A program made the translations under genes and the position numbers. From NCBI RefSeq assembly GCF_945980375.1, contig NZ_CAMFQO010000002.1, forward strand, positions 62,001 through 126,000: a stretch of DNA of 64,000 bases, in the 5' to 3' direction. The stretch comes from an uncultured Eubacterium sp. Its GTDB lineage: Bacteria; Bacillota; Clostridia; Oscillospirales; Acutalibacteraceae. Positions 14,616 to 46,417 of the stretch are shown here, piece after piece. A model generated the notes under the pieces. That model was not told where the DNA came from, made no database searches, and worked only from the letters and a program-made list of their open reading frames with translations. Numbering within the stretch: the stretch's first letter is position 1; every line of letters starts with the position of its first letter.

Positions 14616-14637
14616 ATTGCTTTTATTTTTTTTGAAA

Positions 14638-14662
14638 GGGAGCAGGCATTTGACCTGCTCCC
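14638..14662 (-). terminator. Inverted repeat between the two tRNA genes
   Basis: GGGAGCAGG-loop-CCTGCTCCC immediately downstream of tRNA-Pro(CGG) on the minus strand. The T-run after it is only TTT, so it may be a weak terminator or a processing hairpin. Confidence 0.5.
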
Positions 14663-14665
14663 CGT

Positions 14666-14742
14666 TGGTCGAGGTGACAAGATTCGAACTTGCGACCCCC
14701 ACGTCCCGAACGTGGTGCTCTACCAAACTGAGCCACACCTCG
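14666..14742 (-). tRNA. tRNA-Pro, anticodon CGG
   Basis: 77 bases including encoded CCA. Acceptor CGAGGTG/CACCTCG, D stem GCTC/GAGC, anticodon stem CCACG/CGTGG with loop TTCGGGA (anticodon CGG), T stem GCAAG/CTTGT with TTCGAAT loop. Only 50 bases separate it from the tRNA-Pro(GGG) gene. The T stem and variable region match that gene, so the pair probably diverged from a duplication. Confidence 0.95.
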
Positions 14743-21770: not shown

Positions 21771-21944
21771 ATGATGAAGTTTATCAAAGACGAAAACGGT
21801 CAGGGCATGCTCGAGTATGTACTTATCATCGCACTTGTTGCACTTGTACTTATCGCTGTACTTGTTGTAATCAACCAGAAGTCTAAGAAGGCTGGCGACA
21901 AGACAAACAATCAGATGGATGCAGTAGAGAACGCTCTTAAGTAA
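21771..21944 (+). CDS. flp: Flp-type major pilin precursor
   Basis: 57 residues. Strong AAAGGAG site. A short charged leader (MMKFIKDENGQG) precedes the processing site, then MLEYVLIIALVALV with the invariant Glu at +3 and Tyr at +4 of the Flp family (cleavage after G12), a single hydrophobic helix and a hydrophilic tail. It would be cleaved by the adjacent A24 peptidase and assembled into a Tad pilus. A GC-rich hairpin follows at 21979, consistent with stabilised, abundant pilin mRNA. Confidence 0.93.
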   Translation: MMKFIKDENGQGMLEYVLIIALVALVLIAVLVVINQKSKKAGDKTNNQMDAVENALK

Positions 21945-22059: not shown

Positions 22060-22722
22060 TTGAAAAAGCTTTATAGCCGATTGTGGCAACACGGAAAATC
22101 CGAGGACGGACAATCTATGATAGAATTTGTCATCGTCTTCCCCATATTTATGCTGATACTTGCCATGATTCTCGACTTTGGATGGCTGTTTTATAACAAG
22201 CTTAATGTTGAGAATTCGGCACGAAATGCAGCCAGAGTAGCTTGCGTTGAATACACGGAGGTTGCGTATGACGACGAAAACCAGCGCCCTGATGTTACAT
22301 ATAACAATTTGGGTGTGGCAACGGCATACAGCAAAACCTACAACCTCGGCGACTATGCCGCTGTTTTGGGCGGTACGGCGTCGGAGGAGGAACTGGAGAG
22401 CTGCGTGCTGTCCGGTCAGGAAATTCGTGTTTTAAGGCAGGTTTCAAACACCGTGCCTATGGATGTTTCGGATGTAACCGTTACAATTGCGTATACCTAT
22501 GACAAGGAATATCTTACCTCGCCGTCGGTTGCGGAGTATAATGTATCTAACCGTTCAAGAGGTGACGTGGTTGTTCTTGTAAGAGGTACTCATCACGCAA
22601 TCAGTCCGTTTGTAGCCCTTGCCACAGAACCCGGAGAGGGCAGCAGAATGACACGAATTATAGGCGCAAAGTCTGTCTATAAGGTAGAGGCTAACAGCCT
22701 TTCCGAGCAGGAGGGCTCATAA
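22060..22722 (+). CDS. tadE: TadE-like pseudopilin
   Basis: 220 residues, starting with TTG after GAGGTGA. The region around residues 12-45 is the TadE pattern: a GQSMIEFVIVFPIFMLIL segment, where the GQS...EF site resembles a pilin-processing site, then a hydrophobic helix and NKLNVENSARNAARVA. The extracytoplasmic domain has no recognised motif. TadE-type pseudopilins are minor components needed for Tad pilus assembly. Confidence 0.85.
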   Translation: MKKLYSRLWQHGKSEDGQSMIEFVIVFPIFMLILAMILDFGWLFYNKLNVENSARNAARVACVEYTEVAYDDENQRPDVTYNNLGVATAYSKTYNLGDYAAVLGGTASEEELESCVLSGQEIRVLRQVSNTVPMDVSDVTVTIAYTYDKEYLTSPSVAEYNVSNRSRGDVVVLVRGTHHAISPFVALATEPGEGSRMTRIIGAKSVYKVEANSLSEQEGS

Positions 22723-23543: not shown

Positions 23544-24749
23544 ATGGCTGATTTAATTAACATTGTTGTTTGCGCCGAGCAAACAGAAATTAAGGTAAAC
23601 ATCAAAAACAAGATTGACCCCGAAAAGCTTGAAATCATCGGCTACACCGAATTCAGCGACGAGGCAAAAACAAGAATTTTGGGATATTCTCCCGATGTGG
23701 TAATCTTTGCCGCAGAAAGCGCAGATATTGATGAAAAATTCTTCCAATTCATCGAGGATATGGAGCTTGCATCAAACGGCTGCTCACCCGTTATTATGAC
23801 AGATGATGTAACCGTTTCGCTTGTAAACAGTGCTGCTCGCTACGGCGTGCGTCAGGTTATGGATTTGGAAATCAGCGGCCGTGAGCTTACCGAAAACCTT
23901 GAGGGCGTTCTCAGCAGTGAGCGCAAGCTCAGCAAGAAGATTAACGTTGAGCGCAAAACAAGGTCCCATGTTTACTCCTTTTTCAGCGGTAAGGGCGGTG
24001 TCGGCAAAACAACCGTTTCCACCAACCTTGCAGTTAACCTTGCAAGCCGAGGCAAAAAGACATTGCTTATTGACCTTGACCTTCAGTTTGGTGATGCCGA
24101 TATGGCACTTGACCTTAACCCAAGCGAAACAATTGTTGATGTTGTAAGGGATTCGCTCGGTATTTCCATTGACAACCTTACAAATTGTGCCGTTACTCAT
24201 GCGTCGGGACTTTCCGTTCTTTCTTCTCCGTCATCACCGGAGCTTGCAGAATACGTTCAGTCTAATCATGTTAAGCAGATAATTGATACAGCAAGAAATT
24301 ATTATGAGTACATAATTCTTGATTGCGGATGTAACCTTACAGACCCTGTAATCACAGCGCTTGAATCAAGCGACACCATATTTATGGTTAACGATGTTAA
24401 CATCCTTTCGCTTAAGCGCGCAAAGCTTTGTCAAAATGTATTGCTCCAGATTAATCAGGGCGACAAGATTAAGCTGATTATCAACAAAAATACAAAGAAA
24501 AATAATGTTAAGATTGCCGATTACGAGAGCATTTTGAACATGGACGCTTATGCAATCTTTTCAAGCGACCTAAAGACAATTAACGATTCGCTCAACAGCG
24601 GCCAGCCTGCTATTTCCTACAAGCCGAGAGCAGCCTTTTCAAAGGAGCTTAATGCCTTTGCAGAAAAGATAATTATGGAAAGAGAAGGCAAGGAAGGCCT
24701 TGCAAAGCTTGGCGCCAAAGGCAAGAAAAAGGGCAAGTTCGGTAAATAA
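23544..24749 (+). CDS. tadZ: TadZ/CpaE-like MinD-family ATPase
   Basis: 401 residues. An N-terminal receiver-like domain (about 1-125) lacks a convincing phosphoacceptor triad. A MinD/ParA-type ATPase follows, with the deviant Walker A SGKGGVGKTTVSTN at about 146-159 and LLIDLDLQFGDADMALDL. The tail is basic (KGKKKGKFGK). TadZ proteins place the Tad machinery at a cell site, usually a pole. A MITE-like element starts 4 bases after the stop. Confidence 0.9.
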   Translation: MADLINIVVCAEQTEIKVNIKNKIDPEKLEIIGYTEFSDEAKTRILGYSPDVVIFAAESADIDEKFFQFIEDMELASNGCSPVIMTDDVTVSLVNSAARYGVRQVMDLEISGRELTENLEGVLSSERKLSKKINVERKTRSHVYSFFSGKGGVGKTTVSTNLAVNLASRGKKTLLIDLDLQFGDADMALDLNPSETIVDVVRDSLGISIDNLTNCAVTHASGLSVLSSPSSPELAEYVQSNHVKQIIDTARNYYEYIILDCGCNLTDPVITALESSDTIFMVNDVNILSLKRAKLCQNVLLQINQGDKIKLIINKNTKKNNVKIADYESILNMDAYAIFSSDLKTINDSLNSGQPAISYKPRAAFSKELNAFAEKIIMEREGKEGLAKLGAKGKKKGKFGK

Positions 24750-25067: not shown

Positions 25068-26417
25068 ATGGGATTGTTAGACAGATACACCGTCGGCGGT
25101 GCAGATGAAGCCCTTCAGGGCTCTGCGCGCAAGGCAGAATCGACAGAAAGAATTAGACCCGTCATTGAGGATAGATACTCTGATGTTAAGGGGCGTATTC
25201 ACGCATTAATCATTGAGCAGCAGCTTGGCTCGGAAAATGCAGATATTTCCGATGACGGTATGAGAAAGCTCATTGACGAATATGTGGAACGACCGGATTT
25301 CAACATTCCTCGAGTTGACAGAGAGATTGTTAAAAAGGAATTATTCGATGACATTATGGGCTTCGGCCCCATTCAGCCTCTTATCGACAGCGATGTGTAT
25401 TCCGAAATTATGGTTAACGGATACGACCATGTATATGTTGAGTCAAAGGGTAAGCTTGTCCTTACCGATATTCAGTTTAAGGACGATGCTCACCTTATGC
25501 AGATTATCGACAGAATCGTATCAAAGGTTGGAAGACACGTTGATGAATCAAGCCCTATGTGTGACGCCCGTTTGCTTGATGGCTCCCGTGTTAACGTAAT
25601 TATTCCTCCATTGTCATTGGTTGGTCCGGTCCTTACCATTCGTAAGTTCGGTAAAACCCCTATTACAGCGGAAAACCTTGTATCCTGGGGCTCTATATCA
25701 ACAAAGATGCTCGATTTTTTGGAGGCTGCCGTTAAGGGTAAGCTAAACATTATTGTATCAGGTGGTACAGGCTCGGGTAAAACAACACTCCTTAATGTTC
25801 TTTCATCATATATCCCGTCCGATGAAAGAATTATCACAATAGAGGACTCTGCCGAGGTTCAGCTTCATCAGGAGCATGTTATCACCCTTGAAAGCCGTCC
25901 TGCCAACATGGAGGGCAAGGGACGTATCAGTATTCGTGATTTGGTAGTTAACGCACTTCGTATGAGACCTGACCGTATTATCGTAGGTGAGGTTCGTAGT
26001 GAAGAGACCTTGGATATGCTTCAAGCTATGAACACCGGTCACGACGGCTCACTTACAACAATCCACGCCAATTCTCCAAGAGACTCTATTTCCCGTATTG
26101 AAACAATGGTTATGATGTCCGGCTCGGAGCTTCCGTCAAAGGCTATCAGAGACCAGGTTTCATCAGCTATTAATATTATTGTTCAGCAGGCCCGTCTGCG
26201 TGACGGTTCAAGAAAGGTTACCTCTATTTCGGAGATTGTCGGTATGGAGGGTGACGTTGTCAGAATGCAGGACATTTTTGTTTATGATACCGATGGCGAA
26301 TTTGACTCAAACGGCAAATTCAAGGGTACATTTAAGCCAACAGGTATTATTCCGAAATGTGTTGAAAAGATTAAAGAAAACGGAGTAGTGGTATCAAATG
26401 ACTGGTTCAATGATTAG
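25068..26417 (+). CDS. tadA: Tad pilus assembly ATPase (TadA/CpaF)
   Basis: 449 residues. Secretion ATPase of the VirB11/CpaF family: FGPIQPLIDSDVYSEIMVNG in the N-terminal domain, Walker A GGTGSGKTTLLN at about 232-243, TIEDSAEVQL, and the conserved RPDRIIVGEVRSEE plus NTGHDGSLTTIHANS segments. It is the cytoplasmic motor for pilin polymerisation. Its 3' end overlaps tadB by 20 bases. Confidence 0.96.
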   Translation: MGLLDRYTVGGADEALQGSARKAESTERIRPVIEDRYSDVKGRIHALIIEQQLGSENADISDDGMRKLIDEYVERPDFNIPRVDREIVKKELFDDIMGFGPIQPLIDSDVYSEIMVNGYDHVYVESKGKLVLTDIQFKDDAHLMQIIDRIVSKVGRHVDESSPMCDARLLDGSRVNVIIPPLSLVGPVLTIRKFGKTPITAENLVSWGSISTKMLDFLEAAVKGKLNIIVSGGTGSGKTTLLNVLSSYIPSDERIITIEDSAEVQLHQEHVITLESRPANMEGKGRISIRDLVVNALRMRPDRIIVGEVRSEETLDMLQAMNTGHDGSLTTIHANSPRDSISRIETMVMMSGSELPSKAIRDQVSSAINIIVQQARLRDGSRKVTSISEIVGMEGDVVRMQDIFVYDTDGEFDSNGKFKGTFKPTGIIPKCVEKIKENGVVVSNDWFND

Positions 26418-27369
26418 TGTTATCGTAATAACGGCGGCATTTGCCATGCTCGCTTTCATAGTGGCATTTATTTTATCCTATACCTTGGGTGCCTCAAAGA
26501 TTGAAACAGATAAGAGAATGGAGGAGCTCAAAAAGCAGGAAGGCTATGTCGATGTTTCACTTGTAAAAAACAAGAAGAAGGAGCGCAAAAAGAGAGAGGC
26601 ACAAAGCGACCTTTTTGTAAAGCTTGCAACCGCACTTTACAAGCAGCTTCAAAGTGCGGACATTAAGATGCGCCCCGAGGAGTTTATGCTCATTTGGGTT
26701 ATTGTTGCGGTTTTGCCTGCCTTGTTTGTCCTTCTTATTTCGGAAAAGCTTGCAGCCGTTGCCTTGGGTGTTGGCATAGTTGGTGCCGTTGCCCCGTATA
26801 TGCTTATCAAAATTAAGCAAAAGCAAAGGGTTAAGAAGTTTGACGTTCAGCTCAGTGATGCACTTATGATTTCGTGCAGCTCGCTTCGTGCAGGTCTTAG
26901 CTTTACTCAGGCTATGGAGGCTATATCAAAGGATATGCCGGACCCTATCGCATCGGAGTTTGCAACAGTTCTTGATGAGATGGCTATGGGTATGCCAATG
27001 GATGAGGCACTTGAAAGACTTAATACAAGAATTAAGAGCAAGTATCTTCCGCTTATGGTATCATCTGTGCTCATCCAAAGACAAACCGGTGGTAACCTTT
27101 CATCAATTCTTGAGGGTATCGCAGATTCTATTAAGGAAAAAATGAAGCTAAAGCAGGAGCTTAAGTCGTTGACCTCATCGGGTAGAACAACCGCTACGAT
27201 GGTAGGCTCAATGCCGGTTGTGCTTTGTATTCTTTTCTTCCTTGTTAACAGAGAATTTATTATGCCTTTGTTTACAACAAGTACAGGCCATATCTTTTTG
27301 GGTGTTGCAGCAGGGCTTGAGGTTCTTTGCTTCATTGTTGTAAAAAAGATTATTACTATAAAAATGTAG
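26398..27369 (+). CDS. tadB: Tad inner-membrane platform protein TadB
   Basis: 323 residues. GspF/type II secretion F domain with several membrane segments. Characteristic stretches: DALMISCSSLRAGLSFTQAM and SVLIQRQTGGNLSSILEGIA. It forms the membrane platform with TadC. ATG 26398 or 26410 may be the start. Confidence 0.92.
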   Translation: MTGSMISVIVITAAFAMLAFIVAFILSYTLGASKIETDKRMEELKKQEGYVDVSLVKNKKKERKKREAQSDLFVKLATALYKQLQSADIKMRPEEFMLIWVIVAVLPALFVLLISEKLAAVALGVGIVGAVAPYMLIKIKQKQRVKKFDVQLSDALMISCSSLRAGLSFTQAMEAISKDMPDPIASEFATVLDEMAMGMPMDEALERLNTRIKSKYLPLMVSSVLIQRQTGGNLSSILEGIADSIKEKMKLKQELKSLTSSGRTTATMVGSMPVVLCILFFLVNREFIMPLFTTSTGHIFLGVAAGLEVLCFIVVKKIITIKM

Positions 27370-27379
27370 GAGGCGCCTT

Positions 27380-28327
27380 ATGATTCCTTTTTTGGTAATA
27401 GCATATTCGTTGTTGATCCTTGTGCTTTGTATCGTAGTGTTTGGAAAAAAAGGCGCAGAAGAGGACAATAACCTTAAAAGAATGAAATCTATCGGCAAAG
27501 AGGTTGTCAATGCCGAGTACAAAAATATTGAAACATCGTTTTACGAGCGTAACATAAAGCCTATTATCGCAAAGATGTCAAACCTTGACAGTCAGGGTAA
27601 CAAGCAAACAAAGAATGCCCGTAAAAGACAGGAAAGTGAAAAGCTTGCCCTTCAGCTTAGAAAGGCCGGTATACATATGTCGGCAGGCAGCTTTACATAC
27701 CTTAAGACTGCCGTATCAATTGTTGGTGTAATTGTGTCGGTGGGCATTGGATTTTTGCTTATGGATGTTACATCGTACTTTTGGCTTGTTATGCTTGTAG
27801 GTGCAGGCCTGTCGTTTTTTGCACCTAACCTTGTGCTTAACTCAAAGGTTAAAAGCCATCAGGGTGCAATTAGGGCACAGCTTCCGGATACACTTGATTT
27901 GCTCAGTGTTTGTATGGAAGCAGGCTTGAGCTTTGATGCATCCCTCCTTAAAATTTCGGAAAGAATGGAGGGCCCGCTTATTGACGAGCTTGTAACTGTG
28001 TTTAAGCAAATTCAGCTTGGTAAAAGCAGAAATGATGCACTTAAGGCGCTGTCGGATTCAACAGATGTCGACGAGCTTAAAACCTTTGTGTCTGCCGTAA
28101 TTCAGGCGAACACCTTGGGTATACCAATCACCAACGTTCTTGCCGCACAGTCGGAGCAGCTTAGAGTTGCAAAGCGAGAGGAAATCAGAGAAAAAGCAGG
28201 TAAGGTACCTACAAAGATGACTATTCCTACCGTACTTTTGATATTGCCTGCTATTATATGTATCATTATGGGCCCGGTTGTTATTCAGGTAATGGATAGC
28301 GGTGCATTGAGCTCAATCTCATTGTAG
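27380..28327 (+). CDS. tadC: Tad inner-membrane platform protein TadC
   Basis: 315 residues. Second F-domain protein: LPDTLDLLSVCMEAGLSFDA, AVIQANTLGIPITNVLAAQ, and AKREEIREKAGKVPTKMTIP near the last membrane helices. Preceded by AGGAGG. It pairs with TadB. Confidence 0.92.
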   Translation: MIPFLVIAYSLLILVLCIVVFGKKGAEEDNNLKRMKSIGKEVVNAEYKNIETSFYERNIKPIIAKMSNLDSQGNKQTKNARKRQESEKLALQLRKAGIHMSAGSFTYLKTAVSIVGVIVSVGIGFLLMDVTSYFWLVMLVGAGLSFFAPNLVLNSKVKSHQGAIRAQLPDTLDLLSVCMEAGLSFDASLLKISERMEGPLIDELVTVFKQIQLGKSRNDALKALSDSTDVDELKTFVSAVIQANTLGIPITNVLAAQSEQLRVAKREEIREKAGKVPTKMTIPTVLLILPAIICIIMGPVVIQVMDSGALSSISL

Positions 28328-28334
28328 TAGTGTT

Positions 28335-28679
28335 ATGAAAATGTTAGGATTGTACAAGGATGATAACCTCCTTGTTGAAGAAATTGAAAATGCAAATCAT
28401 TTTGTGCGTAGGTTTATGGGGCTGATGTTTAGGCGCAGTATGGCAGAAAACCACGGCCTTTTGCTCACCCCGTGTGACGAAATCCATACCTTTTGTATGA
28501 GGTTTGCCATAGATACCGTAGCACTTGATAAAAACAACAGGGTGCTTTTTGTGGACCCTGCTGTTCCTCCGCATAAGGTAAGAAAAAGGGTTAAGGGATG
28601 CAAAAAAATCCTTGAGCTGAATGCGGGTGCTGCCGAAAGGCTCGGCATTAATGTCGGGGACGTTTTGGCATTCAAATAA
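28335..28679 (+). CDS. DUF192-family protein embedded in the tad operon
   Basis: 114 residues with no signal peptide. It fits DUF192: FVRRFMGLMFRRSM, HTFCMRFAIDTVALDKN and a C-terminal ILELNAGAAERLGINVGD. The biochemical role of DUF192 is unknown. Members are often found next to tad genes in Gram-positive genomes, which suggests a link to pilus biogenesis. Position 7 bases after tadC indicates co-transcription. Confidence 0.85.
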   Translation: MKMLGLYKDDNLLVEEIENANHFVRRFMGLMFRRSMAENHGLLLTPCDEIHTFCMRFAIDTVALDKNNRVLFVDPAVPPHKVRKRVKGCKKILELNAGAAERLGINVGDVLAFK

Positions 28680-28700: not shown

Positions 28701-29348
28701 ATGAGCAATAGGGAAATTGTAGACAGAAATCAAATATTGGGCACTAATAAGGTAGAGTTTGACAAGGCACTCAGAGGATACGATGTTGGCCAGGTAGACG
28801 AATACATTGCCAACCTTATCAACGTTCAAAAAAATGCCTCGGAGAATTTTGACAGTCAGGTTAAGGATTTAAGGAATCAAAACTCTATGCTTCAGTATGA
28901 GGTTTCGGACCTTAAGGAGCAGGTTAAGAGCCTCACTGCAAAAAATGAGCATGCAGTTGAGGAAAAGGAAAGGTTGATGAAAAAAATCAACGAGGCTCCC
29001 CGTGAGGTTAAGGTTGTTGATGACAGTCAGCTTAAGGAGCTTCAGGAAAAATATGATGCCCTTGTCAGCAAGCATAGACTTTTGGGTGAGGAGAACAGAA
29101 GGCTTGCCAAGGAAAATGAGGGTCTAAAGCGAGATGTTGCCCACCTTACCAAAAAGGTAGACAAGAACAGAAGCGAAATCAATAACCTTCGAACAAGTGC
29201 CGAGGGTAATTATACAAACGTTACCGATGAGCGCTTCATCAAGGTTTCAAGAATATACGAGGAAGCTATCGATAAGTGCGAGGACCTTATCTTTAGGCTT
29301 CAAACCGAGCTTTCTCTTGCTCATTCAAAGGCAGAGGATATAGAATAA
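28701..29348 (+). CDS. DivIVA-like coiled-coil protein
   Basis: 215 residues. The N-terminal FDKALRGYDVGQVDEYIANL is the DivIVA membrane-curvature-binding motif. Most of the remainder (about 45-165) is heptad-rich coiled coil. DivIVA-like proteins mark poles or septa in Gram-positives. Sitting between tadC/DUF192 and the giant gene, it may position the Tad apparatus, together with TadZ; this is inference from context. Confidence 0.82.
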   Translation: MSNREIVDRNQILGTNKVEFDKALRGYDVGQVDEYIANLINVQKNASENFDSQVKDLRNQNSMLQYEVSDLKEQVKSLTAKNEHAVEEKERLMKKINEAPREVKVVDDSQLKELQEKYDALVSKHRLLGEENRRLAKENEGLKRDVAHLTKKVDKNRSEINNLRTSAEGNYTNVTDERFIKVSRIYEEAIDKCEDLIFRLQTELSLAHSKAEDIE

Positions 29349-29438
29349 TTTGTGCCAAACGGTGCAAATAACAAAGCAACAAACCCCCAATCAATCAGCA
29401 GGTAGCTTACAACGCGTTTAACAAGGAGTGTGATTGCC

Positions 29439-32400
29439 TTGAAAAAATTATTCAAAAGGAAGGAAAACGGTGATATTGCCCTTATATCGATATTTGCGTC
29501 TATCGTAATATTGACTATTTTGGCTCTTATCATCGATTTTGGCTTAATATATTATCAATCGGCAAGGTTGCAGAATGCAGTAGATTCTGCGACTGTTGCT
29601 GTTGCGCATAATCTTATGGCAGATGATGCGTCCGTAAAGAATACGGTTGAAACCTATATGAAAGAAAACGGCGTTGATATTACCGAAAAGGGTTACGGTG
29701 CAATCACCCCCGGTACCCTTACCACTAAGATTACATATGGTGACGAGGACGCTATCGTTTTGATTGATAAAAAGGGACTTCTTACCGAGGAGGCAGAGAA
29801 TGCCGACGACGGTAGGTACATAACGGCGGGTTATCTTAAGGTGACCGTTGCCGTAAAATGCAAGGGCTATTGGTCCGCATTTTCAGGACTTACAGGCAAG
29901 CAAATAGTTAAAAGCGGCTACGCAAAGTGCGATATGCAGTACAATGATATGCCTGAAGCACTTAAGTATACAATTTTCGGTAACTCACCAAACACAACCG
30001 ATGATTACCGCAAAATGACCGTTAGGATAGACGGTAGAACAAACAACACACAGGCTGTTGTGAATGTATTTACGGACATTATTAACGGTATTAATGAGAG
30101 CTTTGTTCAGCCTATTATCGGTGCGTTCGGCGGCGAGCCAAACTACAACACATTGCTCAACGCAAGCCTTTCGCATGCAATTATTAACGGCGACGTGCAC
30201 TCTAATTCAGACATCAGCATAGGTGTAAACACCATCCAGGCGAGCAGAGCCAAGGATGGCGACTTTAACGGTAAAGCGGAGGAGTGTATCTGCTCCATTA
30301 AATGTAAGGAAAATTCAGTTAACAGATATTGCACCGTTTGCCAAAACGATTACAGAAAGTGCGACGGCGACGAGCAAACAAATGACGACTATAACCAGGT
30401 TATCTTTACTGCCGTAAACAAGATTGACTTTTCGGCAGGCAAGTACGCAAACGATAGCTTTATCGGCTCCATTATCGGCTCTGATAACGACTTTGAAACA
30501 AGAGTTTATGTAAGAAATTTCCAGTATGTTGAGCAAACACAGGTTGTTCTTTATGTGCTTAACCAAATTGATTTTGATACCATTTCAAGCACGGAAACAT
30601 TAAGAAGCGTGTTTACCCAAACAGCAACAGAGTATTTTGAAAACAGCATTACCTTGCCCGAATCGCAAAAGAATGCAATTCTTGCACAGGCAAACAACCT
30701 TGAGTATATCAGCAAAAACAAGTATCAGCTTAATGCTCAAAAATCTATCGTTTATGCTGCGTCAAACGCAATGGCAAACGATGTTATGCTTGCCGTTCAG
30801 TCGGGCAACACACTTGTTAATATGCTCCAGCCGGTGCTTGACAGCGGTGGTATAGACCCAACCGCAACACCTGAAACTCTTTTGAAATACGACGGCACAA
30901 ATCTTGATATAGAAAACAGCGTTATCACCTTTACAAAGCCGGATAGCGACCAAACAGCCGAGCTTTATATTGTTGACAGTGAAAATACAAACAGAAGCGT
31001 TATTGATATGACAAAGCAGAGTTTAGTTACAGATTCTGCCACTGCCGGATATAGATTTGCTATTGCAAAAACCTTCCATCAGTTTGCAAATCATATTGAT
31101 GCTCCTAATATGAAGCCGTACTTTATCAGAGCAATTAACCGCTCCGTAAAGAACGCAACAACCACCAAGGACAGCGATTCCACAGCAACCGAATACGAGG
31201 ATGCAAAATCCGTTAAGGACGCTGTTAAGAAATCACAGACTCGCCTTGTAAACACAATTAATTCAAAGAACACAATGGCGACTATCAATAACGGTGACGG
31301 TACCTTCAGCAAGGGCTCCGCAGATGCCACAACAGACCCAAGCGCTGTTGCAGACGGACGGTCGGATACCTATATTGATAATACATACAGGACAAGTGCG
31401 TCCGTTACCAGACAGGAAACCTCACCGTTGTTTAGGTACAGGCTCAATTCCACAACCAACGATAAGAATAAGCTTGTAACAAATAACGATAACGGCAAAT
31501 CACCGTACACCCTCATCAAGTACGGCAATAATGACGCAGGCCATACCACCTATAATGGTGTTAAGGTCTTTAACGACGAGGGCAATTTGTCAACCGCCAA
31601 GGAGGTAGTTGACGACTATGCCCAAAAGAACAACAGCAAATACGGCAAGAATGCTGTTGATAAGTTTGAGCAAACGGATGTTCTTGTTGACGCAGATGCA
31701 GACGATCCGTCTGTACACGACTACGAAAGTCACTATGGCGATGATGCCGTAGCAAAGAAAAAACATTATATAGAAAATACCCTTATGCTGTCGGAGGATA
31801 GCAAATTTAATGATGCTGCGCCTAAAAAGGACGATGTTTTCCTTATGAGCACCGGCACAAAGAAGAGCTATCTTGAAAAGAAGATTACCGACATCAAAAA
31901 TATTGCAGGGGCTATCGGCAGCACGGCTCTCGCAATCCCTGCAGATTTAAGGGTGGACCCTGTTGCATCAAGGTACAGAACCCTTATTGATGCAACCGTT
32001 GCCGACCTCGGCTACACCCTGCAAAACAGCACAGGCCTTTCTTACACAGGTGAAGCGTCTATTTCTAAAAAATACATCACACCTAACGGTACAACCGTTG
32101 AAGAGGCTTATTCGTACGAAGCTCTGCTTCCGGGTAGGGATAATACTGTTTCAAAGACGGTTGATGCGATTCTTACCGAAACACGTAATGATTTCAAAAA
32201 GGTTGAGCCATCGCTTGATGCTTCATTAAACCCGGTAGAAATGAATCAGGCTAACCTGCTCACCCTTGTTAACAATAAGTATAACGAGTATCATCAGATA
32301 AAGAGCACTTCGGGTTGGACATCAAGAGGTTCAGCCGGTAAAGACCCAAAAGATTCAGATTTCCCAAGAGAGGGAAAGCAGATGATACTTCATGATAAGT

Positions 32401-35400
32401 CGGTCTACGCTTCTATTGATAGTGCATGGACTACTAATTGGATTGGAGCTCTTTCGGAAAGATTGGGTGTAACAATAAAGTCAGGTAGATCAGTACAGAT
32501 TAACGGTCAATTTAAGCTTGACAGCGACGACTCAAGCACTCAAGTTATTATTGGTGATAATTCCGATATATCAAAGCCAACATACCTTTATGTAAAAGGA
32601 AACGTTATTGTAAGTAGATGTAATGTTACAATAGGTGACAATACAACCGTTATTGTCGACGGACATTTTAAGGTTACAAATGGATACAATCTTACTATCG
32701 GTAATAATTCCAAGCTTATCGTTAACTATGAAATGTTCATTGACGGTAATGTTAATGTTGGTGAAAATTCTATCGTTGTAGTAAACAAAACAGAAACCGG
32801 CTCAAATTACTCTTTGAAGTATGGCAGTTTGACAACAAGGTCGGGCTCAAAGATGTACATCTATAAGGATGTATACAAGCAAAACGGTGGTGATAATCAC
32901 CTCGGCGGCGAGTTCTACACCGGCGGTGCTATGTGGCGCGAAGGTGCAGGTGGTAACACATATTTTGACAGCAACTCGCTTACATACCTCGGCAGAGACC
33001 TTAACACAAACGGAAAAGGCGACCTTTACCTGCAGGAGAATGCAATAGTAGTTGTTAACACTCCTCCGGAGGCCGGCACAAACTACGAAACCGTTAAGGT
33101 TACCGGAGGTAAAACAATAAATATGGCAGCAGGCTCTGTGCTTGCTACCTTGGGTAGTGTATACCACAGAGTTGACGCTTCAATCTATAATATGGAGCCG
33201 GGCTCACTTATAGTAACCGATATGGTTAAGTGCGGTAACAGCTCCAATACCTCTTGGCTTTCAAATGTCATTGCCAAGAAGATTGACACCAACGCTCTTG
33301 TTTTCAAAAAGGGTGCTCACGTATTCTGCTCCGATGAAATCTATATTGCCAACAACAAGACAATAGAGATTAACAACAGTGTTAAGATTGTTGCAGGTAA
33401 AAACGGTGACGGTGAAAGTGTAAGCGGTAACAGTGCGTTTACATTCTCTGACAACTACAACAATGCAACCAATAAGGAATTTGCTATCGGTTGTACAGGT
33501 ACAATTAGAAACTTTGGCTCGGGCGACTTTGTTCTCGGTGCAAACTGCTTCCTTTCTGCTCAGGGATTAAGCATCGGCAACCTGACCATCAACGAGGGCG
33601 GCGGCTTCCTTATCCCTCACGACAGCAGTACAAATACAGATATTACCAAACTTACGGTCAATGATGGTGATTCCACCTACATAGGCAACAACCTTAATGT
33701 TAGGGATGAAATTACGGTTAATGCAGACCTTAACCTTTACAAGGTTGCAAGTGCAAAATTAATCAAAGTAAACAGCGGAAATCTTGTTGTTGACACAGAT
33801 TGTACGGCAACAAATGTTACGGTTAATGGCGAAATGAATGTTGCCAACACATTCAACTGCTCAGGCACTATTGAAAACCAGGGCAAGCTTTTGGTAGGTG
33901 TTGCACCTAACGGCTCAAATTCGGGTAATACCGGTAGCTTTAGCGGTTCGTCGGGTACAATTAATAACTACGGCACTGTGCAGATATACGGCGATGCTTC
34001 GTTTGGTACGGTCAATAACAAGTACAATACCGCAAAGAGCAAGGGCTCTGTGTTCTACTCGGGTGTTGACATCTTTAACCCTGCAACCACAAGCATTACA
34101 ACATTTAACAACGAAGCAAGCTGTCAGCTTATCTGCCCTGATATGCTTCAGGTGCAAACAGTTGTAAACAACGGCTTTGTTGAGGCGGGCACACTTTCGT
34201 GCACATCGTCGTTCACAAACTATCAGTACGGTCAGGCCAAGCTTCGCAGCGCAACCTGCTCGGGCGGTATCACCAACGACGGTATCATTCAATGTACAGG
34301 CAGCTTTAGAGTAAGCGGTGACGTAAACAATACAAAGAACATCAGGCTCGATAGCGGCTGCAACATTACCGGCAAGCTTACAAACTCCGATTCCGGTAAT
34401 GTACAGGTAACAGGCAACGATGCTAACTTTAAAGATGTTGACAACTCGGGTAACATCAGCGTTTACGGTCAGATTATCTCAAGCGGAAAATTCGTTAACG
34501 ACGGCTTTACCTGCACGGCGAGCCAGTCGAAGATTTACAGGCTTGAAAACAGCGGTACGTTCAGCACAACGCTCCTCAACCGCGACGGCAGTACGGAATC
34601 GAATATCGTAAACACCGGTACCATTGAGCTGTACAGCACATCAGGCGGTGCTTCGTCAAACGTTACAAGCATTGATAATAGCGGTGATTTTGTATCAAAC
34701 AGATCGGTTTACACCGGCAATCTTGTTAACACAGGCAAGCTTGAGGTGTTTGAATCGCTTGATTCATCCAGCGACATTACAAACAGCGCAAAGCTTTATG
34801 TACACAAGAGCATAAAGGCGACATCAACAATTAACAACAATTCCAACGGCTCAACCGGCGAGGGTAATTCTACAATCTATGCCGGAATGGGCAACGGCTC
34901 CGATTATGCAATTTATGCAGCAACCATAAACAACGGTGCAAACATTGTTGTCGGCAGGGATGACATTTATGTTACCGGAATATTTGTCGTGCTTGAATCG
35001 AGTATTGTTTGCGTAATTGACGGTGGAATTGATACAAAAGATTTTGAGCTTAACAATAATTGCTCGTTAAGCTATAGCAATGACCTTAATATAAGAGAAA
35101 AGCTTATTAACAAGGGCAACGTCTTGTTAACAGAGGCAAAGGCAAAGCAAATTGAAAACTACGGCAACCTTTACATAGAATCAAACGGAAACTTTAGGCT
35201 TGATTATTTGTATAATAGAGGAACAGGAAGCATTGCGTTTGATGGCGGCTCGCTTGAGATAAACTATCAGGATAAAAATGCCTCAATTCTCAACGAGGGT
35301 AAGCTTTATGTTAAGGGCAATGTTTTCTGCCACGGTGCGTTACATAGCAAAGGCGGAGAGGCATACATCTACGGTGATTTGGATGCCGCAAACACTGTTG

Positions 35401-38400
35401 CATTAAACAACGCGTGCGTTTACCTTGAAAAAGATGCACAGCTTTATGTATACGGCGATGTGCCTACAAATGATGCGGGCAACGGCGTTTACATCATGGA
35501 AAAGACAGATGTTAACCTGCCAAATGCTGTTTACAGTGTTTACGGCAGAGGCAACACAATCAACAGCGGTACCATCAACAGCGACCAGCAGTCGTCAAAG
35601 CTTTACTTTGGCGGTGATGTTAAGGTAACCACCACAAGCAACACCCAAACAATGAAGGGTCAATCGTTCTTCTACGGCAAGTACACCACCGAAGCAACGA
35701 TGAACTTTAACATCGAAAACGAGGGACTTGTTTACATCGCAGACAATGTTGACGCACAGGAAACAAGCGTTTATGTAAGAAGCTCCGGCTTGTACTGCTA
35801 CGGCAGATCTGTAAAGTTCAAGAACATTGACGGTGATGCAGGACGTATTTACCTTATCAATCTTCCTATTTCGCAATATACGGGTGTTTCGGGTGTAATC
35901 AACCTTAAAAACGCAAGTATGATTTACATGCCAAAGGGTGTTACTTTACCTGCCGGAAAGCTTGTTATGACAGACGACTGTCTTGATCTTTCAGACCCGT
36001 CTACGATTATACCGATTACAAACGACAATTTTGCAAAGGCAAATTCAGGCTTTGTTACATCGGGTAAAGTAAAAGTTATGAATACTCTTACAATTCCGGA
36101 GGGCTCAACCCTTTGCGTAGGCGGTAACCTCTATCTCCTCGGTATAAATGCAAGGATTGTAGTTAAGGGTAACCTTTATGTTACGGGCAAGATTTATTAC
36201 AGCGACAGCATTACACCGACAACATTTAACTCAACGGAAATATCCGAATTAAGCAATGTTAAGTTTGACGATTTGATTACTATGAATGGTCAAAATGCCG
36301 AAATGTTTATCGGCAAAACAAATTCCGGCACGGTTAACCTAAAAGATCAGCTTAACCTTTACGGCAACCAAAAGCTGTATATGGAAAACAACCTGTCAAC
36401 GACAGGTAACCTTTCCAATGCCGGAAAAAGTAAGGGCGGTATCAGCGGTGGAAGCCTTGTTCCTAACCGTGGAGAGTCTGTAATTATTGAGGGCAATTCA
36501 AAGGTTTGCATCTCGGGTGACTTCTTCACTAACGGACCTAACAACAACCTCGGCAATGCCGTATATGTCGCAAAGGATGCATCGCTCAGCTGCGGCGGTA
36601 ATCTTTACAACGATTCTGCAATTTACAACTACGGTACATTATTTGTATTCGGCGAAATGGTTAACTACAAAAAGGCAGACGGCACAGAGGCAAACGATGC
36701 AAGGAAGTATTCATCCGATAATTCAGATAGTAAAAAGAATTATTTGGGAATTTCGTTGCTTAACGGTAACGACGGTGTTCGCACGGCTCGCTTCTTTGTA
36801 GGCGGACATCTTAAGGACGGAACCGTATCGCAGAAAACAATTATCTTTGAGGGCTATGCTCAAAACTGGGGACAAATTAATATTAATCAGCCGATATATA
36901 TCAAAGGCCATAGAATGAACGGCTATTTGTATATGAGAGCAATTGGCGAAAATACTAAGGCGGAGTTTTACACTCGTGGTAACAGCAGCCCTGAGGGTAT
37001 TAGACCTAATTCTCCTATGTCTTCAATCGTAGCTGAGCAGGGTTCACGTGCAAACTTTGGTAACAATGTTGCAATGCTTGGAGGATACATCACCTTTAAC
37101 AGAGATTCAACCGGAAACAAGGATGCAATGCCTGTATTCTCGGCAGAGGGCGATGCAACCTTTGGCCAATGTATCCTTAACGGTGGCATCTTTTATGCTA
37201 AGGGTGCAGTTGGCTACACAGGAGAGGTGGGTCATACTGCAGACGTAAATCGTCTTGGAGAAAAGGATCAATACAGGAATTATTATATTAGACATCTTGA
37301 TATTCTTTGGGGTGAATCAGAGGGTAGAAAGGGCTCATATTCTATCGTAAACGGATACACACTTTACGATAGAAGCCAAAGTGGCGGAGATTGTCCGCAA
37401 AACAAAAAGGCATTGTTCTATTCCGGTAGCGGCATTAAGGTTGGCAAGAACGAGAATTCAACCGGTAACGATATCGGTGGCTCAGTTCAAAACTGGGGTG
37501 ATATGTATATTGATGGTAGCCTTATTGTTTACTCTAACGGTGATGCTGCTGTAAATAAGATTGCTGTGGCTGCTGAGCCTGATTCAAGAACCATTATCGC
37601 AGGCGATTGCTGGAGCAGTGGCGGTACTGTAACAATGCGTAACACCATATTTATGTGTGACGGCGACTTTATGGCAAAACGTTGTGCAAGAATCGGTGTA
37701 TCTGAATTTGTAAAAAGTGAGGATGACATTAACAGTAGCTCATACACCTATGTTGGCGGCAACATGGTTACAAGTACTGAAGGTACAAGTGGCAAAGGTG
37801 ACCTTGGTAACGGTGTCGATCCAAAGATTTCAACATGGAACTATCTTGACATTTTCTCCAATGCAAATATTTATGTAGGCGGCTCGTTCTTCACCAACAG
37901 TATTTTCCACCCGTTCCAAAACGTAACCATTGTTGTTGACGGTAAGAATAAGGGCAAGGTTAATACGTCTACAAACTTTATAACCTGGCTTCAAACAATA
38001 GCGAACGGTGTTTCGCTGTCGATTAGCGGATACAATATGGATGACTTTAAGTTTATCGTAAATGATAGATTTGACGTTCAAAAAACTATGTCCGAGGGTA
38101 GAACAACCTCTATGCTCGACAGGTACTACATTCACGGCAGCGTTTACCTTAACGGCAGAGCAAAGATTGCCGATATGACAAAGTTCTATGTTTACGGTAA
38201 CTTTGTAAACAGAACAGGCCTTATCGCAAAGCTTTCGTCATTTGAGGTCGGCAGAGCGCTTGATGTTAAAAACGACGGTGACACATGGGCTTCAAAGGGA
38301 ACATTTGTAGATTCTAACGATAAGCCGAGAACAATCAGGGACAGCAATGGTAACTATATCCTTAACCCTGATTACGACTATAATTATGCAAACGCAACCT

Positions 38401-40445
38401 ATGTTTATGTTGAGGATACCCTTGATGTTGACAGACAGATGGATATTTATCCGGGTACCACAATCAAGATAGGCAAGAACTACAAGCTGTTCGGAAGAGT
38501 AAAGCTTGACCACGATACAAGGCTGTATTGCGGCGGCAAGATTGACTCAAAGAGATATATTGATGTCGGCCAGTACGCAGACCTCTTTGCAAAGGGAGGC
38601 CTTAGCGCTTGGAACTATGTTGTAATACGCGAGCATGCTATGCTTTACAGCGGCGGCGATGTTAAGTGCGGTACCACCTACGAGGGCAAGACTGCATCGA
38701 CAACATACACAGAGGGCTCGCTTAAAGCAACTCTTTCAAACATTAAGATTCGCGACGAGTCAACTGCATTTGTCAGCGGTAATATGAGCGCATTCAGCTA
38801 TATCGAGCTTGGCAAGAAGGATGAATCCTACAAAGACAACCTTCGTAAGCCGGAGGATCCTTCAACGGGCAATGTATGTACCTGCTCAAGCAGATGTACC
38901 GGCTCGGGCGATGAACAGCACGACGGCGACTGCCCTGTATGTAAAGGTGATTACAGCAGGTGTACCGCTCCGCTTGAATGTATTTGCGAAAGCGAATGTA
39001 CATCCGAAAGCTACAATGCAGACTGTCCGGTATGTAATGCAAATATTGCAGAATGTAAGCATGTTAACCCTGAAAATCAAGAGGGTGTACAGTGTACCTG
39101 TAAAGATACAAGATGTACAGCCGCAAATCCGGATTGTCCGGTATGTAGCACGGATTACAGCAAGTGCGAGGTTGCATCTGAAGAAACTGTGCTTGAAAAC
39201 GACATTACAAGGGATTTGACCGACAAGGCTGACGGTGGTAACTTCTACATAGGCAAGGCGCTTGTGTCCTACACAAGCTACATCAGGCAGTACGGCTTCT
39301 CAAGTACGTTGGTCGGAAAATATGTATTTGCCAACAGGTATTTGACTCTTCGAAGCAATTCGGATATGTGGGTGCTTCCTGAGGCATTTAACAACGATAC
39401 GTATAAGCATGTTGACAAAACATTTGAAAGTGACGGAACTATCCTCGGTGATATTATAAAGTTCATCAAGGAAACTGCGTTTAAGGTGCAGGATAAGCTG
39501 TCGCTTAAGAACGGCTCAATATATACAATGGGCGATTTGTCGCTGAACAAGAATGCGTCAATAATGGGTACGCACGATTGTTACGTATTCGGCCAGGCAA
39601 CATTGCTTCACGATTCGTTGATGTACTTTGGCCATGATGTTAAGTTCTACGGTCCAAGCTTTGATTTGAGCGGTATCTTTACCGGCAACTTTACGGGCTT
39701 TACCGCAGCCGGTGATGTTTACACCACTATGAAGTGTAACAACAAGGCAAAGCATCCGTCCGGCTACACAATTTACACAAAGAATTACGACCCATCAAAG
39801 TCGTATGTTTGTGACAAGTGCGGTGCGGCATTGAGCAAGAAAACAGTTAGGGAAGCGGTAACATGTCCTGTTACTGTCTATGCAAACAACGATATTGTAA
39901 TGGCAACCTCTGTTAATATGAGCCTTTGCTATGCAGTTGCCTGCAACGGTGATGTTACAATATCCGACCCGTATTCAAGCAATACCTATGACGACAGAAA
40001 CCTGTATCAGCTTCCAAACGCTATTGCTTCGTACAACGGTAACATTACCTATGCAACAATGTACGGCAAGATTGCGGCATTGTTCTACGCACCGTCCGGA
40101 AATTCAACTCCAGAAAAGACGGTTGGTAATGTTAAGCTTGACGGCTTCTATCAAGAGGTATGGGGCTCAATTATCGGTGATACCGTAACGGTTGATACCT
40201 TCTACATCAACCTCCACAGGTTCAATAACTGGAGAACTATGGACCTTCAAATTGCCGAATCAGGTAATGTATACTTGATTTCAAAGGAAGAATATGACAA
40301 GTATGTCAATAATGTTGACGAGGCCTTTATGACCAGCGGCAACACAGAGGACGAAACAAAGGGCGGTGCATCGCTGTTCTTTGACAAGGATATTCTTAAC
40401 AAGGGCGAGGTTTCCGGCGGAGGACTGGAGCAAACTACTAATTAA
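29439..40445 (+). CDS. Giant membrane-anchored TadE/TadG-like protein with beta-solenoid-like body and cysteine modules
   Basis: 3,668 residues from a TTG at 29439, chosen because AAGGAGTG is 8-10 bases upstream and MKKLFKRKENGD matches the other tad pseudopilin start. Residues 12-50 have the TadE/TadG pattern: a hydrophobic helix (ALISIFASIVILTILALI), then QSARLQNAVDSATVAVAHNL. Residues about 100-1000 are Asn/Asp/Thr-rich. From about 1018 to 3600 short irregular repeats of the type N-x-G-x-I-x-V-x-G-x-I dominate (VYVAKDASLSCGGNLYNDS is one), a pattern of stacked beta strands like bactofilin or right-handed beta-helix proteins. Cysteine modules C-x-C-x3-4-C-xn-C-x2-C-x5-C occur at 283-308 and three times at 3147-3243; a zinc-ribbon-like C...C-x2-C lies at 3433-3461. 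There is no LPXTG motif and no von Willebrand domain, unlike TadG. It probably extends from the membrane through the wall as an adhesin or scaffold. Confidence 0.85.
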   Translation: MKKLFKRKENGDIALISIFASIVILTILALIIDFGLIYYQSARLQNAVDSATVAVAHNLMADDASVKNTVETYMKENGVDITEKGYGAITPGTLTTKITYGDEDAIVLIDKKGLLTEEAENADDGRYITAGYLKVTVAVKCKGYWSAFSGLTGKQIVKSGYAKCDMQYNDMPEALKYTIFGNSPNTTDDYRKMTVRIDGRTNNTQAVVNVFTDIINGINESFVQPIIGAFGGEPNYNTLLNASLSHAIINGDVHSNSDISIGVNTIQASRAKDGDFNGKAEECICSIKCKENSVNRYCTVCQNDYRKCDGDEQTNDDYNQVIFTAVNKIDFSAGKYANDSFIGSIIGSDNDFETRVYVRNFQYVEQTQVVLYVLNQIDFDTISSTETLRSVFTQTATEYFENSITLPESQKNAILAQANNLEYISKNKYQLNAQKSIVYAASNAMANDVMLAVQSGNTLVNMLQPVLDSGGIDPTATPETLLKYDGTNLDIENSVITFTKPDSDQTAELYIVDSENTNRSVIDMTKQSLVTDSATAGYRFAIAKTFHQFANHIDAPNMKPYFIRAINRSVKNATTTKDSDSTATEYEDAKSVKDAVKKSQTRLVNTINSKNTMATINNGDGTFSKGSADATTDPSAVADGRSDTYIDNTYRTSASVTRQETSPLFRYRLNSTTNDKNKLVTNNDNGKSPYTLIKYGNNDAGHTTYNGVKVFNDEGNLSTAKEVVDDYAQKNNSKYGKNAVDKFEQTDVLVDADADDPSVHDYESHYGDDAVAKKKHYIENTLMLSEDSKFNDAAPKKDDVFLMSTGTKKSYLEKKITDIKNIAGAIGSTALAIPADLRVDPVASRYRTLIDATVADLGYTLQNSTGLSYTGEASISKKYITPNGTTVEEAYSYEALLPGRDNTVSKTVDAILTETRNDFKKVEPSLDASLNPVEMNQANLLTLVNNKYNEYHQIKSTSGWTSRGSAGKDPKDSDFPREGKQMILHDKSVYASIDSAWTTNWIGALSERLGVTIKSGRSVQINGQFKLDSDDSSTQVIIGDNSDISKPTYLYVKGNVIVSRCNVTIGDNTTVIVDGHFKVTNGYNLTIGNNSKLIVNYEMFIDGNVNVGENSIVVVNKTETGSNYSLKYGSLTTRSGSKMYIYKDVYKQNGGDNHLGGEFYTGGAMWREGAGGNTYFDSNSLTYLGRDLNTNGKGDLYLQENAIVVVNTPPEAGTNYETVKVTGGKTINMAAGSVLATLGSVYHRVDASIYNMEPGSLIVTDMVKCGNSSNTSWLSNVIAKKIDTNALVFKKGAHVFCSDEIYIANNKTIEINNSVKIVAGKNGDGESVSGNSAFTFSDNYNNATNKEFAIGCTGTIRNFGSGDFVLGANCFLSAQGLSIGNLTINEGGGFLIPHDSSTNTDITKLTVNDGDSTYIGNNLNVRDEITVNADLNLYKVASAKLIKVNSGNLVVDTDCTATNVTVNGEMNVANTFNCSGTIENQGKLLVGVAPNGSNSGNTGSFSGSSGTINNYGTVQIYGDASFGTVNNKYNTAKSKGSVFYSGVDIFNPATTSITTFNNEASCQLICPDMLQVQTVVNNGFVEAGTLSCTSSFTNYQYGQAKLRSATCSGGITNDGIIQCTGSFRVSGDVNNTKNIRLDSGCNITGKLTNSDSGNVQVTGNDANFKDVDNSGNISVYGQIISSGKFVNDGFTCTASQSKIYRLENSGTFSTTLLNRDGSTESNIVNTGTIELYSTSGGASSNVTSIDNSGDFVSNRSVYTGNLVNTGKLEVFESLDSSSDITNSAKLYVHKSIKATSTINNNSNGSTGEGNSTIYAGMGNGSDYAIYAATINNGANIVVGRDDIYVTGIFVVLESSIVCVIDGGIDTKDFELNNNCSLSYSNDLNIREKLINKGNVLLTEAKAKQIENYGNLYIESNGNFRLDYLYNRGTGSIAFDGGSLEINYQDKNASILNEGKLYVKGNVFCHGALHSKGGEAYIYGDLDAANTVALNNACVYLEKDAQLYVYGDVPTNDAGNGVYIMEKTDVNLPNAVYSVYGRGNTINSGTINSDQQSSKLYFGGDVKVTTTSNTQTMKGQSFFYGKYTTEATMNFNIENEGLVYIADNVDAQETSVYVRSSGLYCYGRSVKFKNIDGDAGRIYLINLPISQYTGVSGVINLKNASMIYMPKGVTLPAGKLVMTDDCLDLSDPSTIIPITNDNFAKANSGFVTSGKVKVMNTLTIPEGSTLCVGGNLYLLGINARIVVKGNLYVTGKIYYSDSITPTTFNSTEISELSNVKFDDLITMNGQNAEMFIGKTNSGTVNLKDQLNLYGNQKLYMENNLSTTGNLSNAGKSKGGISGGSLVPNRGESVIIEGNSKVCISGDFFTNGPNNNLGNAVYVAKDASLSCGGNLYNDSAIYNYGTLFVFGEMVNYKKADGTEANDARKYSSDNSDSKKNYLGISLLNGNDGVRTARFFVGGHLKDGTVSQKTIIFEGYAQNWGQININQPIYIKGHRMNGYLYMRAIGENTKAEFYTRGNSSPEGIRPNSPMSSIVAEQGSRANFGNNVAMLGGYITFNRDSTGNKDAMPVFSAEGDATFGQCILNGGIFYAKGAVGYTGEVGHTADVNRLGEKDQYRNYYIRHLDILWGESEGRKGSYSIVNGYTLYDRSQSGGDCPQNKKALFYSGSGIKVGKNENSTGNDIGGSVQNWGDMYIDGSLIVYSNGDAAVNKIAVAAEPDSRTIIAGDCWSSGGTVTMRNTIFMCDGDFMAKRCARIGVSEFVKSEDDINSSSYTYVGGNMVTSTEGTSGKGDLGNGVDPKISTWNYLDIFSNANIYVGGSFFTNSIFHPFQNVTIVVDGKNKGKVNTSTNFITWLQTIANGVSLSISGYNMDDFKFIVNDRFDVQKTMSEGRTTSMLDRYYIHGSVYLNGRAKIADMTKFYVYGNFVNRTGLIAKLSSFEVGRALDVKNDGDTWASKGTFVDSNDKPRTIRDSNGNYILNPDYDYNYANATYVYVEDTLDVDRQMDIYPGTTIKIGKNYKLFGRVKLDHDTRLYCGGKIDSKRYIDVGQYADLFAKGGLSAWNYVVIREHAMLYSGGDVKCGTTYEGKTASTTYTEGSLKATLSNIKIRDESTAFVSGNMSAFSYIELGKKDESYKDNLRKPEDPSTGNVCTCSSRCTGSGDEQHDGDCPVCKGDYSRCTAPLECICESECTSESYNADCPVCNANIAECKHVNPENQEGVQCTCKDTRCTAANPDCPVCSTDYSKCEVASEETVLENDITRDLTDKADGGNFYIGKALVSYTSYIRQYGFSSTLVGKYVFANRYLTLRSNSDMWVLPEAFNNDTYKHVDKTFESDGTILGDIIKFIKETAFKVQDKLSLKNGSIYTMGDLSLNKNASIMGTHDCYVFGQATLLHDSLMYFGHDVKFYGPSFDLSGIFTGNFTGFTAAGDVYTTMKCNNKAKHPSGYTIYTKNYDPSKSYVCDKCGAALSKKTVREAVTCPVTVYANNDIVMATSVNMSLCYAVACNGDVTISDPYSSNTYDDRNLYQLPNAIASYNGNITYATMYGKIAALFYAPSGNSTPEKTVGNVKLDGFYQEVWGSIIGDTVTVDTFYINLHRFNNWRTMDLQIAESGNVYLISKEEYDKYVNNVDEAFMTSGNTEDETKGGASLFFDKDILNKGEVSGGGLEQTTN

Positions 40446-40519
40446 TTTACAGGCAAAAACGATGATGCTATATTGTCGTTTTTGCCTTGTTTTAACAAAG
40501 ATTGGATAGGGTAAATTTA

Positions 40520-46396: not shown

Positions 46397-46417
46397 TACA
46401 TATTAGCGAGGTACACT

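Follow-up and report, generated by a model that had tools for sequence, protein, structure and literature searches.

Grafted modules have been described before in pilins, as have a solenoid within a pilin and a TadG that forms the backbone of a pilus tip. The solenoid case is ComZ of Thermus thermophilus, a pilin with a ~380-residue, ~60-angstrom beta-solenoid that is argued to be a tip subunit and that was missed by a pilin motif search (PMC6561018). Within Tad systems, TadG has been modelled as the backbone of tip complexes, with a modular C-terminus, and the Tad tips of Myxococcus are described as priming pili and affecting prey recognition (PMC12075869), while in Caulobacter CpaL, which carries a vWA module, has an influence on the number of pili and on surface sensing (PMC12607857). 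A review table places TadG among the parts of the membrane sub-complex (PMC10191384), RcpC/CpaB is described as a ring conduit in Pseudomonas (PMC12307814), and the minimal Tad machinery of monoderms is given in another review as a major and two minor pilins (PMC6916266).

The protein studied here (hereafter the giant) is encoded within a 64-kb stretch of DNA, which is what we call the window. It resembles ComZ in combining a pilin-like domain with a beta-solenoid (both only putative in the giant, from its sequence) and in escaping motif-based pilin recognition, whereas the ~380-residue solenoid of ComZ is inserted within the pilin sheet, in a DNA-binding protein of a diderm (PMC6561018). With TadG, KilN and CpaL it shares the TadG class, an N-terminal module (putatively pilin-like in the giant), a large C-terminal module and the association with tad genes, but these proteins carry vWA or other modules and are much smaller where a size is given, the vWA of CpaL ending near residue 626 (PMC12075869, PMC12607857). 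PilB and PilC of Streptococcus sanguinis are also monoderm proteins with a binding domain grafted on a pilin, although they belong to a Tfpa system and their modules are vWA and lectin (PMC6916266). Finally, the short solenoid TadG-class proteins described below (loci L152-L160; PF13400 plus DUF7305) have ends related to those of the giant, are linked to tad genes and sit in the same operon slot in six of nine cases, but they have 363-659 aa, far fewer rungs and no visible counterpart of the ~700-residue region that follows the HSN motif. Among the matches listed in searches of the open-access literature, neither a giant TadG nor DUF7305 was the subject of any paper. As far as these searches show, what is new is the length, the apparent orthology with short DUF7305-type TadG proteins and, in the samples searched, the confinement to one genus plus one neighbour. 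We consider it probable that, in the Tad (type IVc) pilus of a monoderm, the giant serves as the TadG-class minor pilin, a tip or initiator with an expanded solenoid rod and a distal cap, like a very long ComZ.

Gene and operon context

The giant gene (29439..40445, + strand; defined by its open reading frame, ribosome-binding site and Pfam matches) encodes 3,668 aa without internal stops. It starts with the TTG at 29439, with AAGGAG at 29423-29428, ten bases 5' of it; an in-frame GTG at 29430 lies one base past the AAGGAG and is a less likely start. A terminator-like hairpin of 17 pairs, found by pattern search, follows the stop codon (40451..40487, + strand) and has the most pairs of the 34 such patterns found in the window, against 19.3 ± 5.0 expected.

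The genes upstream, all on the + strand and annotated with Pfam, encode a prepilin peptidase (PF01478; 21031..21729), a 57-aa Flp major pilin with the site ENG↓QGMLEY (21771..21944; 29.4 bits, under the cut-off of 32.2), a TadE minor pilin with the site EDG↓QSMIEF (22060..22722), RcpC/CpaB (PF16976; 22843..23514), a TadZ/CpaE-type ATPase (AAA_31; 23544..24749), the TadA/CpaF assembly ATPase (T2SSE; 25068..26417) and the platform proteins TadB (T2SSF, 66.2 bits; 26398..27369) and TadC (T2SSF; 27380..28327). Between TadC and the giant there are a DUF192 protein (28335..28679) and, directly upstream of the giant, a coiled-coil protein (28701..29348) that we call DivIVA-type from a GYDVGQVDEYI motif recognised by eye, its DivIVA match reaching 21.7 bits, under the cut-off of 28, and its best match being ZapB with 36.3 bits. 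These two proteins perhaps place the Tad machine at the pole or the septum. The Pfam annotation and the hairpin agree in making the giant the last gene of a Tad operon, the position that an earlier note on this DNA had assigned to it.

A profile search found no secretin match in the host genome (98% complete), and we therefore read the system as a monoderm-type Tad system. In the same genome, at E values up to 0.001, PF13400 matches the giant only and the TadE profile matches only TadE and the giant, which would be the two minor pilins of the minimal monoderm Tad machinery here. The earlier proposal that the giant replaces TadG thus seems to hold, although the vWA-containing TadG was the wrong comparison and the short solenoid forms are nearer.

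Past the hairpin, 40502-41302 encodes a protein of 266 aa that is hydrophobic near its N-terminus and has no match in Pfam up to E 1, followed by a phosphopantetheinyl transferase; matches to this protein were seen at three (L120, L121 and L126) of 24 giant loci, although in many of these the sequence stops close to the giant. Tandem tRNA-Pro genes (ggg, cgg) lie on the minus strand at 14540-14742.

Architecture of the giant protein

Residues 1-60 (29439..29618, + strand) comprise a short basic leader, the ENG and a hydrophobic helix. PF13400 (Tad, TadE/G-like) matches residues 13-56 with 28.5 bits, above its cut-off of 22.3, and was matched in all 16 full-length giants scanned, that of the window included; the TadE/TadG-type N-terminus previously claimed is borne out by this profile, while TadE (PF07811) stays below its cut-off, as do CD1107-like and DUF1031. 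Beyond these four there was no Pfam match in the giant up to E 10, either to a binding domain or to a vWA domain, so that it is not a vWA-TadG. Residues 45-58 read QNAVDSATVAVAHN. The following residues 61-188 (29619..30002, + strand) probably form a pilin-like globular domain; that the short forms have it in common with the giants is seen in an hhalign comparison of the N-termini of giants and of four of the nine short forms (143 columns, probability 99.4, E 2.3e-21). Further on, the alignment revealed the motif INGDVHSNSDISIG at residues 249-262 (30183..30224, + strand), a region in which D252, H254, S255 and N256 are invariant in 16 aligned rows, and in several of the short forms the similar position reads GSVHSN or GNVHSN.

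The glycine of the prepilin site is present in all 25 giants, but only one has E or F (an F) at mature position 5; the other 24 have M, I, W, L or T (I in the window's giant), whereas Flp and TadE of its own operon have E. The giant thus departs from the prepilin-peptidase pattern (G/A, X4, then E/F), which makes prepilin processing doubtful. Four ordinary TadG proteins of ~300 aa also lack E at position 5 (by eye), and ComZ too escaped motif-based pilin prediction, so the missing E5/F5 is not decisive. It does bring up the main rival to a tip or initiator, namely a membrane-anchored surface rod in which the helix stays uncleaved, the stalk crosses the wall and the cap serves as adhesin or as guide for pilus exit, the protein making use of the pilus locus but never entering the filament. 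Besides the 24 of 25 giants without E5/F5, this agrees with the single N-terminal hydrophobic helix, with the lack of LPxTG in the last 80 residues of the giants (0/19), though the genome has four sortase matches, and with the listing of TadG among membrane sub-complex parts in a review table (PMC10191384). However, the short forms have only 363-659 aa and their solenoid looks too short for the wall, the N-terminal domain is the best conserved part between short and giant forms, and published TadG-type proteins have been modelled at the pilus tip (PMC12075869, PMC12607857). We regard such an anchored stalk as possible but rather unlikely, and continue with the giant as a tip or initiator.

After the motif comes a linker or domain region (residues 309-1017; 30363..32489, + strand) which lacks the rung period in the autocorrelation and has no counterpart seen by hhalign in the short forms. 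The periodic body (residues 1018-3140; 32490..38858, + strand), with limits set by reading the sequence together with periodicity and motif counts, contains 11.4% Gly and 10.7% Asn, and we read its rungs of about 20 residues as a beta-solenoid on the basis of composition, motif count and autocorrelation. A rung motif (three residues of strand type, then any residue, then Gly followed by a turn residue) was counted 46 times in residues 1018-3640, against 16.5 ± 3.9 in 500 shuffles, and 845 times in 19 bodies, against 279 ± 16 in shuffles, with 155 motif pairs spaced 19, 20 or 21 residues apart where about 50 were expected. Hydropathy autocorrelation after residue 800 in 19 full-length proteins gave z values, inflated by treating related proteins as separate, of +15, +19, +17, +13, +15 and +7 at lags 2, 6, 8, 14, 20 and 26, and of -16 and -20 at lags 1 and 3. 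Residues 80-650 of the same proteins, taken as a control, gave -4, -5, +7, -3 and +1 at lags 2, 6, 8, 14 and 20, so that lag 8, the only one raised in the control, is the only signal common to both. In the window's giant alone, residues 1018-3140 reach 6.6 (lag 6), 4.9 (lag 14), 3.7 (lag 8), 2.6 (lag 2) and 2.1 (lag 20). Alternating inward residues and coils of ~20 residues would fit a beta-solenoid with three strands per rung, and the Asn/Gly-rich, strand-and-turn body noticed earlier is in keeping with these periodicity and motif results at the level of sequence.

Profile searches of the PDB gave FwdC, which we take to be a beta-helix protein, at an unconvincing E of 0.0022 for the N-terminal alignment reaching into the body, and nothing useful for the C-terminal alignment (lactoferrin-binding protein B at E 1.6); neither the profiles of the giants nor those of the short forms matched ComZ in the PDB. 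A relation of the body to bactofilin (PF04519), which the earlier note had brought up, was dropped as too weak, with no Pfam match in the window's giant and matches in only four of 19 N-terminal pieces (best 7.1e-5) and three of 16 full-length giants (best 0.0091).

Scaled on ComZ (about 380 residues per about 60 angstrom), residues 1018-3610 would give a rod of about 41 nm. The rise per rung of a beta-solenoid is 0.48 nm, and with 20.5 residues per rung and every rung regular the upper bound is about 61 nm; loops and cysteine inserts will shorten the rod below this value. Among 19 proteins, the 17 with a clean change-point estimate of the rod start (it failed for the window's giant, 1900, and for L128, 2200) have bodies of about 1,460 to 2,720 residues and upper bounds of 34-64 nm. 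The wall of monoderms has a thickness of the same order as the estimated rod. This similarity, together with the lack of a secretin match in the genome, could also be explained by a permanent wall-crossing scaffold, several copies of the giant lining or propping the pilus channel in a secretin-less cell. It is a very improbable arrangement, given that nothing in the sequence points to oligomerisation and that RcpC/CpaB, reported as a ring conduit in Pseudomonas (PMC12307814), is encoded in the giant's operon and beside the short forms.

Residues 3260-3610 (39216..40268, + strand) form, by alignment and hhalign, a conserved C-terminal cap. Its link to DUF7305 (PF23981) goes through the short forms only, Pfam matching no DUF7305 in the giants, and the comparison of short and giant caps (113 columns, probability 88.8; hhalign with four of the nine short forms) is less sure than that of the N-termini. 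The four cysteine modules announced in the earlier note are present, found with a CxC...CxxC...C expression at residues 283, 3147, 3181 and 3219; module 1 covers residues 283-308 (30285..30362, + strand), for which Pfam gives only a CD1107-like match (PF14283) below cut-off, and modules 2-4 cover residues 3147-3243 (38877..39167, + strand). They do not characterise the family: when 20 sequences, complete or partial, were scanned with this expression, only the window's giant (four modules) and the sister species E. coprostanoligenes (two) had them, and we rejected them as essential parts. The giant has 63 Cys in all, the cap itself contains a CxxC pair of another kind at about residues 3436-3466, and some other giants have other Cys-rich inserts.

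Distribution and short relatives

The body (residues 1018-3668) matched 14 of 60 genomes, its own included, all of them in the genus. Among 80 genomes of the genus, 31 have PF13400 and 31 have TadC, 30 of them having both and 48 neither; the two exceptions are G480, with a weak TadC match (E 1.4e-8) and no giant, and G010, with a giant but no TadC in a genome that is 62% complete. Co-occurrence with tad genes, already raised in the earlier note, is thus supported by these counts, and homologues away from tad were not found. Complete giants of 2,320-3,679 codons (stop to stop) are present in 20 of the 31 genomes with PF13400, and in ten (G009, G031, G032, G018, G016, G010, G474, G478, G477 and G482) the giant is cut by a contig end. 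In G472 (L167:5133-8510) the frame of the giant is interrupted by a stop after 783 codons and then stays open as far as the contig end, either a decayed gene or an assembly error.

Scanning one genome per species provided 24 loci that encode the cap, 18 with a complete giant and six running off the contig. The coiled-coil gene is just upstream of the giant in all 18 complete loci and DUF192 was seen in 14, the other four stretches beginning inside the coiled-coil gene. One of the 24 loci (L120) is from Eubacterium coprostanoligenes ATCC 51222, and six have record titles naming goat, sheep or red deer sources, which makes a role in ruminant guts possible. Elsewhere, PF13400 was found in 57 of 391 genomes of the class, 20 of 345 of the order and 151 of 299 of the phylum, and among the matches listed for these genomes the window's giant was the only frame of at least 1,500 codons with this domain.

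At the family level (250 genomes), a cap profile found six genomes, namely that of the window, G556, from another genus, with a frame of 2,624 codons, and four with proteins of 415-604 codons. The five other loci are all tad loci with the order TadA-TadB-TadC-DUF192-coiled coil-cap gene (the coiled-coil gene of G627 and G709 being recognised by eye, not by BLAST). PF13400 occurs in 21 of the 250, which we divided into two giants, nine short solenoid forms, seven mid-size and three small proteins, with the mid-size G509 and the small G644 assigned uninspected (the other small ones are G725 and G712). The nine short forms, of 363-659 codons, are those of G547, G675, G586, G604 and G572 plus the four found with the cap profile. 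All nine lie beside tad genes, six of them in the giant's slot after TadC, DUF192 and the coiled coil; that of G675 is behind DUF192 with no coiled-coil gene detected, that of G547 lies between TadE and CpaB, and that of G604 is on the opposite strand. They have at one end a Tad helix and probably a pilin-like domain and at the other a DUF7305-type cap, PF13400 being above its cut-off in all nine and DUF7305 matching all nine at E up to 2.6e-4, above cut-off in two. A match of the short forms to a WD40-repeat protein of the PDB (1.2e-15) was discarded, as no stretch passes alone and the value is a sum of weak repeat matches.

In a TadA tree of 51 rows from 67 loci (for the other 16, G547 among them, the sequence retrieved contained no TadA of 250 residues), the 22 giants of the genus and G556 group together (97/84) within a solenoid clade (99/97), from which the mid-size systems (100/100) and three ordinary ones fall apart. 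G556 nests with four members of the genus (99/99), so that transfer or a loose genus border is possible. The short forms make one group at only 50/61, the root is the midpoint and there was a long-branch warning; read with that root and that support, the tree is most simply explained by a single expansion at the base of the giants. The giant thus appears to be orthologous to the short solenoid TadG-class protein, at six to ten times its length, and the fact that cousin genera have a short protein of like make-up, mostly in the same slot, argues for an expanded solenoid TadG and not for a new fusion.

The giant of G556 (L151:2427-10298, minus strand, 2,624 codons) has a BspA-type LRR region inserted at residues 521-616 (E 9e-23), which hints that other modules can be displayed on the rod, together with zinc-ribbon-like stretches below cut-off. 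A second kind of TadG-class protein, with a length of about 680-1,500 codons and in most cases GY as its last residues, appears across Clostridia in the class survey, with a separate TadA group. Such mid-size PF13400 proteins (about 680-1,500 aa, from other Clostridia), presumably DUF5702, were rejected as halfway forms, as their ends do not look solenoid-like (by eye) and their TadA is separate (19/19 rows, 100/100). Recent tandem duplication was also rejected as the source of the length, the DNA repeats in the gene being short and about 60-75% alike.

The expansion might be neutral, with rungs duplicated without any new role and the short form and the giant doing one job. Aligned over the full length, 14 of 15 relatives are 27-36% identical to the window's giant and the sister species is 56% identical, and the body varies from about 1,460 to 2,720 residues (17/19 proteins), as would be expected under such a process. 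We nevertheless give it almost no credence: setting aside G472, the samples searched yielded no complete protein of the solenoid type with a length between 659 and 2,320 aa, many Gly and Asn columns in the last third of the giants are invariant (25 sequences), and the repeats in the DNA are short and 60-75% alike.

Possible role of the rod

The published tip models for TadG-class proteins, ComZ, CpaL, the minor-pilin-like N-terminus and the LRR of G556 favour a tip or initiator with a distal receptor cap. The short DUF7305-type beta-solenoid module of the cousin genera would have been expanded to a rod of ~70-130 rungs; the N-terminal helix and pilin-like domain would lie beside TadE in the membrane, where they would nucleate assembly by TadA/B/C, after which Flp subunits would be added below and the giant would ride outward, presumably as the tip. 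With about 41 nm to about 61 nm, the rod could extend through the wall and bridge it before the pilus grows, and the conserved C-terminal cap would be the part that meets, and probably binds, the target. The role of the rod is perhaps to reach through the wall and to grip or sense something outside; the adhesin, tether or crown of the earlier note are candidate functions.

A more specific version, which we find unlikely, is that the tip is deployed in advance. Being about as long as the monoderm wall is thick, the rod would already hold the cap outside, with the pilin domain still in the membrane and ready for assembly, and contact of the cap, passed along the stiff rod to the TadE-giant initiator, would start Tad polymerisation only once the cap has gripped something. 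If true, the pilus would extend after contact and not before, the wall would be crossed without a secretin, and it would be explained why, in the samples searched, lengths pass directly from under 660 residues to over 2,300.

If the giant is assembled into the pilus as tip or initiator, its chain of ~3,660 residues would be an extreme among pilin-class subunits, when compared with the ~380-residue solenoid of ComZ (PMC6561018) or the vWA of CpaL ending near residue 626 (PMC12607857), and a pilus tip could carry a rod of 40-60 nm. For cells that have no outer membrane, the giant makes it testable how a Tad pilus gets through the wall and what is bound at its tip, and the naturally occurring lengths (363-659 aa and 2,320-3,679 codons, in most cases at one position of the operon) together with the culture-collection strain E. 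coprostanoligenes ATCC 51222 represent ready material. Also in the window, 45107-48610 encodes a lacto-N-biose phosphorylase (715 bits) and, next to it, what may be a right-handed beta-helix protein (match below cut-off), which may reflect the use of glycans of the mucin or milk type and could possibly give a clue to the target of the pilus.
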